NCBI RefSeq assembly: GCF_944384695.1
Contig: NZ_CALWUQ010000002.1
Span: 1-64,000 of the forward strand
Reading direction: 5' to 3'
Length of the DNA: 64,000 nucleotides
DNA from: an uncultured Agathobaculum sp.
Lineage (GTDB): Bacteria; Bacillota; Clostridia; Oscillospirales; Butyricicoccaceae
Under the pieces are notes generated by a model, which was not told the DNA's origin, searched no databases, and was given only the letters and a program-made list of their open reading frames with translations. Of the stretch, positions 11,659 through 30,334 are shown piece by piece (the first letter of the stretch is position 1; every line of letters starts with the position of its first letter). The position numbers and the translations under genes are program-made.

Positions 11659-11931
11659 GTGAGCGAGGAATACGGCAACGATTTTGTCACGTTGATTGAT
11701 GAGGACGGCAACGAAGTTGAGTTTGAGCACATCGACACCGTGGAATATCAGGGCACAACCTATCTGGCCTTTATCCCGGCGGAGCTTTCCGTTGAGGAGG
11801 ATGCAGAGGTTGTCATCATGCAGATCGTAGAAGAGGATGGCGAGGAAATGCTGGAAGCGGTCGAGGACGACGAGATTGCAGATGCAGTGTTTGCCATTGT
11901 GATGGAACGCGCCGAGGCGGAAGAAGAATAA
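11659..11931 (+). CDS. DUF1292-family acidic protein
   Basis: The product has 90 residues and is very acidic, with the family pattern FVTLIDEDGNEVEFEHIDTV near 9-28, YLAFIPAE near 35-42 and the C-terminal DDEIADAVFAIVMERAE. DUF1292 (YrzB-like) proteins are small cytoplasmic proteins widespread in Firmicutes without a defined function. The start is GTG 11659, following AAGGAGGT at 11642-11649. It usually sits near alaS/ruvX in Firmicutes; here it stands alone, ahead of a structured RNA. Confidence 0.9.
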   Translation: MSEEYGNDFVTLIDEDGNEVEFEHIDTVEYQGTTYLAFIPAELSVEEDAEVVIMQIVEEDGEEMLEAVEDDEIADAVFAIVMERAEAEEE

Positions 11932-11963: not shown

Positions 11964-12160
11964 AAATCCCTGCCCTGTGCGACAGCAGCCCTTTTTTAAC
12001 CCACATTTTTAGTACGGGATTTCGGAAAGTTTTGGTATCGAGCAGCAGGCCTCCCGGGTATACACGGATGTTGGAAGCGCAGACATGCCAAACAGAAAAC
12101 CCACCTGCATGAGTCGTGCAGGTTACTAATTGGGCTGCATCGGCAGGGCGGGGTATTTTT
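11964..12160 (+). ncRNA. 6S-like structured RNA (candidate ssrS)
   Basis: About 197 nt with the architecture of 6S RNA. A long closing stem pairs 11965-11990 with 12132-12157: AAT/ATT, CCC/GGG, GCCCTG/CAGGGC, CGA/TCG and GCAGCCC/GGGCTGC, interrupted by small bulges. Inside are a large bubble whose 3' side holds the hairpin CCTGCA/TGCAGG (near 12104-12122), and a terminal stem containing TTTGGTAT/ATGCCAAA. Pairs that work only as G-U on the plus strand set the orientation. Length, closing stem, bubble hairpin and terminal stem all match the 6S design, but I cannot test the conserved bubble sequence, so the family is inferred. 6S RNA mimics an open promoter and binds RNA polymerase. Confidence 0.55.
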
Positions 12161-12193
12161 ATGCCTACGGGTATGGTGCATGGCAAAAAAATT

Positions 12194-12209
12194 GTTACAT
12201 TTGTGTAAC
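12194..12209. promoter_or_regulatory. Palindrome before the small-ORF promoter
   Basis: GTTACA and TGTAAC form a perfect inverted repeat around a 4-nt centre, directly upstream of the promoter at 12226. A similar AGTTACA/TGTAACT palindrome occurs at 47798, before the S-layer gene. Confidence 0.35.
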
Positions 12210-12225
12210 TTTACAGGAATTTTAT

Positions 12226-12253
12226 TTGCCTTTTTTGCATAAGATGATATAAT
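12226..12253 (+). promoter_or_regulatory. Promoter of the 30-residue ORF
   Basis: TTGCCT, 16 nt, TATAAT, ending 37 nt before the ATG at 12291. Confidence 0.6.
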
Positions 12254-12290
12254 GATACAAAGAAAGTATGAAAAGGAGGTGCAAAGACAC

Positions 12291-12383
12291 ATGAGACATC
12301 TGAGAATCCCCCAGCAGCCCGACCGTCCGGATATCGACGATTTGATTTTCGGCGACGAACATGAGACGCATAGCGATAAGTAA
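12291..12383 (+). CDS. Small 30-residue protein, unknown function
   Basis: The frame ATG 12291 to TAA 12383 encodes 30 residues. It begins MRHLRIPQQPDRPDIDDLIF and ends in a charged tail with two His and several acidic residues. AAAAGGAGG lies about 11 nt upstream, among the strongest ribosome-binding sites in the window, and a promoter with TATAAT precedes it, so it is very likely translated. It has no membrane segment, no signal peptide and no Cys. I do not recognise it. A structural or regulatory micropeptide, or a leader peptide acting on the hairpin 19 nt downstream, are the options; no neighbouring gene suggests a substrate or processing enzyme. Confidence 0.6.
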   Translation: MRHLRIPQQPDRPDIDDLIFGDEHETHSDK

Positions 12384-12401: not shown

Positions 12402-12450
12402 CCACGCAGGGTGCGCATGCTGGAAAGAAGTGCGGCCGCGTGGTTTTTTT
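12402..12450 (+). terminator. Terminator after the small ORF
   Basis: CCACGC at 12402 pairs with GCGTGG ending at 12443, followed by T7. The 30-nt interior is GC-rich and can pair further. Confidence 0.55.
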
Positions 12451-29266: not shown

Positions 29267-30334
29267 ATGCTGCAGATCAGAACACAGCTCACAGACCACA
29301 AAAAGCCCAAGCCGGACGAAAATAAATTGGGTTTCGGCATCTATTATACCGATCATATGCTGATCATCGACCACGATGAGGAGCAGGGCTGGCATGATGC
29401 CCGTATCGTGCCGTACGAGCCGCTGTCGATTGATCCTGCGGCGATGGTGCTGCACTATGCGATGGAGTCCTTTGAGGGCATGAAGGCATACCGCACGCCG
29501 GATGGCTCGATTCAGCTGTTCCGCCCGGACAAGAACGCCCAGCGTATGATCAACACCAATCACCGCATGTGCCTGCCCAGCCTGTCGGTTGAAGATTTCG
29601 TGCAGGCGGTCAAGGCAATTGTGTCGGTTGAGAAGGATTGGGTGCCGCATCAGCCGGGTACCAGCCTGTACATCCGTCCGTTTGTCATTGCGACTGAGCC
29701 GCACCTTGGCGTGCGCCCGTCCAAGACCCATCAGTTTATTATCATCTGCTCGCCGGTCGGCGCGTATTACTCCACCGGCATCAACCCGGTCAAGATTTTT
29801 GTTGAGGACGAGTATACCCGTGCTTGCCCGGGCGGCACCGGCTTTACCAAGTGCGGCGGCAACTATGCGGCCAGCTTGATTTCTCAGGTCAAGGCACATG
29901 AACTCGGCTACGAGCAGACCCTGTGGCTGGACGGTGTAGAGCATAAATATGTTGAAGAGGTTGGCTCGATGAACTGCTTCTTCAAGATTGACGGCACGGT
30001 TTATACCGCTCCCTGCGTGGGTACGGTGCTGCCGGGCGTGACCCGTATGAGCTGCATTGATTTGCTCAAGCACTGGGGCATTCCGGTATCCGAAGAGCGT
30101 TTGCCGATTGTGGATGTTATGAAGGCGTCCAAGGATGGTAAGCTCGAAGAAGTATTCGGCACGGGTACTGCGGCGGTCATCTCTCCGGTGGGTGAGTTGC
30201 GCTATGAGGGCGATGTGGCCTACATCAACAACGGTGAGATTGGCTCGATTACGCATAAGCTGTATGACACGCTGACCGGCATCCAGTGGGGCACACTGCC
30301 CGATGAGCTGGGCTGGACGGTCAAGGTAGACTAA
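29267..30334 (+). CDS. ilvE: Branched-chain amino acid aminotransferase (class II form)
   Basis: The product has 355 residues, the long form of the fold-type IV aminotransferases. It moves amino groups between leucine, isoleucine or valine and glutamate, using pyridoxal phosphate. Landmarks: FGIYYTDHMLIIDHDEEQGW near 24-43, YAMESFEGMKAYR near 65-77, SLYIRPFVIATEPHLGVRPS near 136-155, FTKCGGNYAASL near 195-206 with the catalytic Lys nearby, and ISPVGELRYEGDVAYI near 305-320. The start ATG 29267 follows GAAAGAG; earlier ATGs lie inside the promoter. It is monocistronic with a terminator at 30359. Confidence 0.96.
   Translation: MLQIRTQLTDHKKPKPDENKLGFGIYYTDHMLIIDHDEEQGWHDARIVPYEPLSIDPAAMVLHYAMESFEGMKAYRTPDGSIQLFRPDKNAQRMINTNHRMCLPSLSVEDFVQAVKAIVSVEKDWVPHQPGTSLYIRPFVIATEPHLGVRPSKTHQFIIICSPVGAYYSTGINPVKIFVEDEYTRACPGGTGFTKCGGNYAASLISQVKAHELGYEQTLWLDGVEHKYVEEVGSMNCFFKIDGTVYTAPCVGTVLPGVTRMSCIDLLKHWGIPVSEERLPIVDVMKASKDGKLEEVFGTGTAAVISPVGELRYEGDVAYINNGEIGSITHKLYDTLTGIQWGTLPDELGWTVKVD

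Follow-up and report, generated by a model that had tools for sequence, protein, structure and literature searches.

A microprotein gene of Agathobaculum with overlapping sigma-A and putative mother-cell promoters, and its family in Clostridia

Introduction

The small sporulation regulators MciZ, CmpA and SpoVM of Bacillus subtilis are about 26-40 residues long, are expressed in the mother cell and bind a larger partner. The promoters of the mother-cell programme are recognised by a -10 element of the form CATATTAT or CATATAAT, together with a -35 element that contains ATA for sigma-E and AC for sigma-K (PMC3789822). A different class of upstream signal, the WalR box, has the consensus TGTWAH-N5-TGTWAH (PMC9210968). 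The gene described here lies in a 64,000-nucleotide stretch of DNA from an uncultured Agathobaculum sp., the whole of which is referred to as the window. Its product falls within the size range of the B. subtilis regulators, its promoter region contains a predicted mother-cell element overlapping a sigma-A promoter, and a repeat resembling the WalR box is present upstream.

Gene and regulatory features

A first-pass annotation had proposed a 30-codon frame at 12291-12383 together with a set of expression signals, and each element was found at its place: the Shine-Dalgarno sequence at 12271-12279, a TATAAT promoter at 12248-12253 preceded by TG, a palindrome ahead of the promoter (GTTAC-N6-GTAAC, inside 12193-12209), and behind the frame a terminator consisting of a hairpin from 12402 and then seven T, ending at 12450. 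The features of the locus are as follows.

11659..11931, + strand: DUF1292 protein gene, second upstream neighbour (Pfam PF06949, E 3e-16), in the same order in other genera
11964..12158, + strand: 6S RNA, upstream neighbour (Rfam RF00013, 68.8 bits, gathering cut-off 46.4), a conserved adjacency
12193..12209, + strand: TGTTAC-N5-TGTAAC, palindrome or direct repeat
12217..12223, + strand: mother-cell type -35 GAATTTT, 13 nt before GCATA
12226..12231, + strand: sigma-A -35 TTGCCT, 16 nt upstream of TATAAT
12237..12246, + strand: -10 of the mother-cell (sigma-E/K) type, GCATAAGATG, which overlaps the sigma-A promoter
12248..12253, + strand: sigma-A -10 TATAAT, extended, with TG before it
12271..12279, + strand: Shine-Dalgarno AAAAGGAGG
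12291..12383, + strand: ORF of the 30-residue protein MRHLRIPQQPDRPDIDDLIFGDEHETHSDK, 30 codons plus the TAA stop, all within these coordinates
12330..12350, + strand: codons 14-20, which encode the family core DIDDLIF; from alignments and the AlphaFold2 helix at residues 15-20
12372..12380, + strand: codons of the conserved C-terminus Ser-x-Lys/Arg (here SDK)
12402..12450, + strand: intrinsic terminator CCACGC...GCGTGG-TTTTTTT, kept in all Agathobaculum orthologues, in one of them with six T

Trimmed to the hairpin alone, the terminator has a folding energy of -21.5 kcal/mol (z -2.5), and 1 of 200 shuffles was as good. The protein has a computed pI of 4.9, a charge of -4 and a hydropathy of -1.4, and neither a signal peptide nor a membrane segment was found in its 30 residues. 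Its C-terminus had been described as acidic, which agrees roughly with the pI and charge of the protein, but the conserved end is Ser-acidic-Lys/Arg. When the same residues were sought in relatives, orthologues of MRHLRIPQQPDRPDIDDLIFGDEHETHSDK that are 70-100% identical (E 5e-17 to 8e-10) were recovered from 21 of 25 Agathobaculum genomes, and three of the four genomes without one are incomplete assemblies (76-86%).

Promoters

The element GAATTTT-N13-GCATAAGATG, which the first-pass annotation had missed, overlaps the sigma-A promoter TTGCCT-N16-TATAAT in such a way that CATAAGATG and the extended -10 share one TG. In homologues outside the genus, GCATANNNT is over-represented upstream of the gene, and a stricter form of it occurs in 41 of 99 non-redundant upstream regions, compared with a mean of 1.5 and a maximum of 6 such sites in dinucleotide shuffles; upstream regions of neighbouring genes contained a GCATA-type site in 0 of 66 cases. 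Alignment of 47 sites revealed G at -20 (31/47), A at -18 (35/47) and T at -14 and -13, none of which had been selected for; together they form a putative -35 element, an arrangement corresponding to that of mother-cell sigma factor promoters. A mother-cell matrix derived from 41 promoters, none of them from Agathobaculum, was used to scan both strands of the window, and the site at 12237 (GGAATTTTATTTGCCTTTTTTGCATAAGATG) scored 23.3 bits, ranking first of 127,926 positions with the next at 11.3. GAATTTT contains no literal ATA or AC; G-M-A-W..T-T at -20 is correctly spaced in the 47 sequences, and the window sequence fits the matrix. By these patterns the gene is shown to carry a predicted sigma-A promoter and, overlapping it, a predicted mother-cell promoter of the sigma-E/K type, a finding new to this analysis.

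The layout G-N-A-W-N2-T-N13-GCATANNNTR was matched ten times in the Agathobaculum genome itself and once in a reversed control. One match precedes spoIIIAA (L250; TIGR02858 at E 2e-67, although short of its curated cut-off), which belongs beyond doubt to the mother-cell regulon, and another, with an identical -10 GCATAAGATG, precedes a D-Ala-D-Ala carboxypeptidase gene. Most spoIVA upstream regions gave no score with the matrix, which probably misses most spoIVA promoters by demanding a G before CATA; a relaxed pattern of identical spacing matched 3 of 20 spoIVA upstream regions of the order. As a separate observation, a mother-cell type promoter was located at about 30042-30071 of a contig of the genome (L246, G000:C11), before the gene of a 123-residue Cys/Thr-rich protein that has no Pfam or NCBIfam match and is a candidate spore-surface protein.

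Among the sampled Oscillospiraceae genomes with two copies of the gene, one copy had a sigma-A promoter and the other a mother-cell type promoter in 15 of 15, although these genomes are related and do not represent 15 independent events. For this scoring each pair was withheld from the training set; one copy then had the higher sigma-A and lower mother-cell score and the other the reverse. The single Agathobaculum copy scored 22.2 with the mother-cell matrix and 12.6 with that for sigma-A, and in the pairs of one Butyricicoccaceae genus (g3) the 6S-linked copy is of sigma-A type and the other is ambiguous. This is what would be expected if growing cells and the mother cell both need the same peptide and obtain it either from one gene with two promoters or from two genes.

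The strongest alternative is that the gene encodes a purely vegetative sigma-A small protein, with GCATA forming the 5' portion of an extended -10 promoter and having no tie to sporulation. TATAAT or TATACT is kept in 21 of 21 Agathobaculum orthologues and GCATANNNTG in fewer, GCATATACT itself contains TATACT, and some copies in other genera have sigma-A promoters only, all of which would suit this explanation; the Agathobaculum orthologues that diverge furthest (L017, L020 and L021) retain the sigma-A element and are without the mother-cell element. It is nevertheless considered unlikely, given that the GCATA copies of most other genera are without a good sigma-A -35 and instead have G-M-A-W..T-T at sigma-E spacing, that the architecture is also found before spoIIIAA in the same genome, and that the promoter types separate cleanly between paralogues.

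The genome is that of a spore former by gene content, with a SpoIVA match at E 3e-202. SpoIVA was detected in 353 of 394 Oscillospirales genomes, and because it is almost everywhere its co-presence with the microprotein says little. One complete or near-complete Oscillospiraceae genome (G395) gave no SpoIVA match and has kept both microprotein copies, which also speaks for the vegetative explanation and makes a role bound purely to sporulation unlikely, unless that genome is decaying.

Upstream repeat

The sequence TGTTAC-ATTTG-TGTAAC at 12193-12209 is probably an operator in Agathobaculum and is an exact match to the WalR box. It is exact in 13 of the 21 orthologues, and two orthologues, L010 (TGTAAC-N5-TGTTAC) and L007 (TGTTAA-N5-TGTAAC), keep the direct repeat with the palindrome changed or lost, which favours reading the site as a direct repeat. 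These observations, together with a consensus that was confirmed in PMC9210968, are consistent with the gene belonging to a WalR-controlled cell-envelope regulon in which the peptide would act in wall remodelling. Such a role is judged quite improbable, however, because the pattern is not enriched genome-wide (12 matches against 10 in a reversed control), its other matches in the genome are mostly not upstream of envelope or wall genes, and the other genera examined do not retain the box. Operators of the Rex, CRP/FNR and BirA types were compared by eye and rejected on spacing.

Elsewhere in the genome, three TGTAAC repeats with 11 bp spacing (L083/L084; G000:C44, 4631-4658, - strand) are situated close upstream of a rubrerythrin-like gene, and a further TGTAAC pair precedes the next gene; the repeats at L083/L084 are perhaps the site of an OmpR-type or redox regulator.

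The microprotein family

Relatives were found by single-sequence search in 50 of 87 Butyricicoccaceae genomes and by profile search in 57 of 394 Oscillospirales genomes at E 0.01. A wider profile at E 0.1 raised the latter figure to 89 of 394, with some of the matches above about 0.01 being chance matches in long frames. Profile search of other orders of Clostridia returned relatives in 21 of 391 genomes, and in a thin phylum-wide sample the matches were confined to members of Oscillospirales. A degenerate DNA pattern was also applied to named genomes (A. butyriciproducens, A. desmolans and A. massiliense), relatives whose sequences place the window in Agathobaculum; the invariance of the core in the set obtained with this pattern is partly due to the pattern, a bias for which the later profile searches correct. 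Where relatives are given family names beyond f-number labels, these are presumptive assignments.

Family members are 20-46 residues long, and most have a strong Shine-Dalgarno sequence. Across 60 diverse members M1, D14, D16 and S28 are invariant and D/E17, I19 and F/Y20 nearly so, giving a signature, with few exceptions, of D-(I/V/L)-D-(D/E)-(L/M/F)-I-(F/Y), 6-10 residues, Ser-x-(Lys/Arg) and a stop. The N-terminus is freely variable and less conserved than the C-terminus, and it is almost absent from the shortest member, the 20-residue MGEDIDDLIFGDAETVPSER. AlphaFold2 predicted a single helix at residues 15-20, with pLDDT 83 in the middle block and, in a weak overall model (pTM 0.24), no fold.

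No model matched in a Pfam scan of 36 members, an NCBIfam scan of the window protein or PHROGs, the one-member library matches at E 0.1-0.2 being noise, and searches of the PDB, phages and plasmids returned no match to the family. Fusion proteins were considered and rejected: the frames of 440 and 178 residues at weak matches represent an upstream reading frame (G193) or a fortuitous match within a long frame (G307). A beta-clamp motif was likewise rejected, as the hexamer lacks Gln. On the strength of these searches and predicted properties, the product is a genuine microprotein, predicted to be soluble, from a family without a name, and that family is spread over many Clostridia, consists of predicted proteins of 20-46 residues that are little more than their own motif, and is unannotated in the libraries searched.

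The small size and strong expression signals could also be those of a secreted or processed peptide (a pheromone, bacteriocin or RiPP) or of a small toxin. This is regarded as very unlikely, since the hydropathy of -1.4 is accompanied by neither signal peptide nor membrane segment, no maturation or export genes were recognised among the neighbours, the C-terminus is better conserved than the N-terminus, and no phage or known family was matched.

Genomic neighbourhood

The microprotein ORF begins 132 nt after the end of the 6S RNA on the same strand, an adjacency that the first-pass annotation did not record. Beyond the DUF1292 gene and on the opposite strand are genes that we take, from reading their translations, to be infC-rpmI-rplT. 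The block of DUF1292 gene, 6S RNA and microprotein gene recurs in three Butyricicoccaceae genera, so the adjacency is old; it is not required, because several Agathobaculum species carry the microprotein gene elsewhere, away from the 6S RNA.

In many Oscillospiraceae the gene immediately precedes prfB (release factor 2, TIGR00020), and in one genus a second copy adjoins trmD-rimM. The distance to prfB was 15-80 nt at L036, L040, L045, L051, L052, L057, L116, L117 and others, where the microprotein gene follows NYN-domain and phosphoesterase-like genes. In family f47 its neighbours are a Germane-domain gene and the gene of a C-terminal processing protease, a setting that counts in favour of the interpretation given in the Discussion. 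In family f43 a phosphofructokinase-like gene is usually next, on the other strand, and one f43 contig (G649:C3) bears two copies (L206 and L219) about 3 kb apart with nearly identical ends. To judge from these comparisons, what is conserved is the predicted peptide and not its genomic place.

Coding evidence

For the 21 Agathobaculum orthologues dN/dS was 0.115 (dN 0.124 and dS 1.08, the latter near saturation), falling to 0.079 when restricted to codons 7-30. Variable columns in the genus alignment were distributed 10/9/28 over codon positions 1, 2 and 3, the other two same-strand frames did not have the selection pattern of the ORF, and the ORF RNA did not fold better than shuffles (z +1.0). 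It had been suggested that a check of synonymous sites would bear on the coding status of the frame, and that conservation of the hairpin with loss of the frame in relatives would indicate a leader or non-coding RNA; the opposite was found, with the frame conserved and under purifying selection, and the earlier proposal of a stand-alone protein gene with its own terminator is supported. That proposal did not extend to function, family membership or regulation. The stretch 12291-12383 is a real protein gene, not a leader or non-coding RNA, because dN/dS is 0.115, the ORF RNA has no unusual structure, and the motif and Shine-Dalgarno sequence persist in distant relatives across differing places and terminators. 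That it might instead matter through its translation or folding and not through the peptide, in the manner of a leader peptide, an attenuator peptide or a regulatory RNA element, is suggested by the Oscillospiraceae copies lying in the same direction 15-80 nt upstream of prfB and by similar terminator stem sequences between genera, but is scarcely credible when amino acids are conserved over nearly saturated synonymous sites, the RNA folds no better than shuffles, in the window the gene has its own terminator at 12402-12450 with no further same-strand gene between the two, and the peptide stays constant while places and terminators differ between lineages.

Discussion

The favoured interpretation, which is considered rather probable, is that the gene encodes a soluble microprotein with sigma-A and mother-cell promoters that acts as a putative peptide ligand of a housekeeping partner. 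Growing cells would produce the microprotein, and so would the mother cell once sporulation is under way. Its proposed action as a ligand, for which length, motif and predicted helix are the grounds, is suggested by the smallest members being approximately the signature alone, by the acidic-hydrophobic predicted helix and by the fixed free C-terminus. Folded as a short helix, the acidic-hydrophobic segment may bind, along with the C-terminal Ser-x-Lys/Arg, in a pocket of the partner. The presence of two promoters implies that growing cells and the mother cell share the partner, which would be a housekeeping machine modulated stoichiometrically, as by small sporulation regulators. The family would thereby comprise small proteins of a regulatory kind with a putative connection to sporulation. 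In Oscillospiraceae the two expression programmes would be split between paralogues, and in Agathobaculum both promoters would be on one gene.

More tentatively, and with rather less confidence than in the function of the single gene, the family may constitute a previously undescribed peptide-ligand system operating throughout Clostridia, in which a 7-residue acidic-hydrophobic motif and a fixed C-terminus, borne by proteins of 20-46 residues, would target the same core machine in growing and mother cells, from both promoters on one gene or from promoters split between paralogues. The core machine could be, for example, RNA polymerase, Clp protease or the division apparatus.

If this is correct, a family widespread in gut Clostridia, whose members barely exceed their own motif, is for that reason missing from the libraries searched, and its conserved peptide offers a handle to a target shared by growing cells and sporulating mother cells, in gut bacteria that are important but resist manipulation. 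The paralogue pairs would be a natural case of the two expression programmes of one gene splitting.

The conserved smORFs of gut bacteria in small-protein catalogues (GMSC, PMC11364881) provide a general likeness. The likeness to the WalR regulon is the TGTWAH-N5-TGTWAH box upstream of the promoter (PMC9210968), but here the box is not enriched in the genome and not seen outside the genus, and the target is not a wall gene. In the mother-cell sigma-E/sigma-K regulon of Clostridia the -10 CATANNNT is shared, with a putative -35 about 14 nt upstream (PMC3789822). The predicted element has the layout of the spoIIIAA promoter and some spoIVA promoters, and differs in that the Agathobaculum site is dual, overlapping a sigma-A promoter, and in that a G precedes the -10. 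The microprotein is similar to MciZ, CmpA and SpoVM in size, in putative mother-cell expression and in proposed partner binding. It differs from them in a D-x-D-D-L-I-F ... S-x-K/R signature of its own, with no family match in the Pfam scan of 36 members or the NCBIfam scan of the window protein, and in that the Clostridial family is acidic, predicted to be soluble, and has predicted sigma-A promoters in addition, either alongside the mother-cell element or at a paralogous gene.
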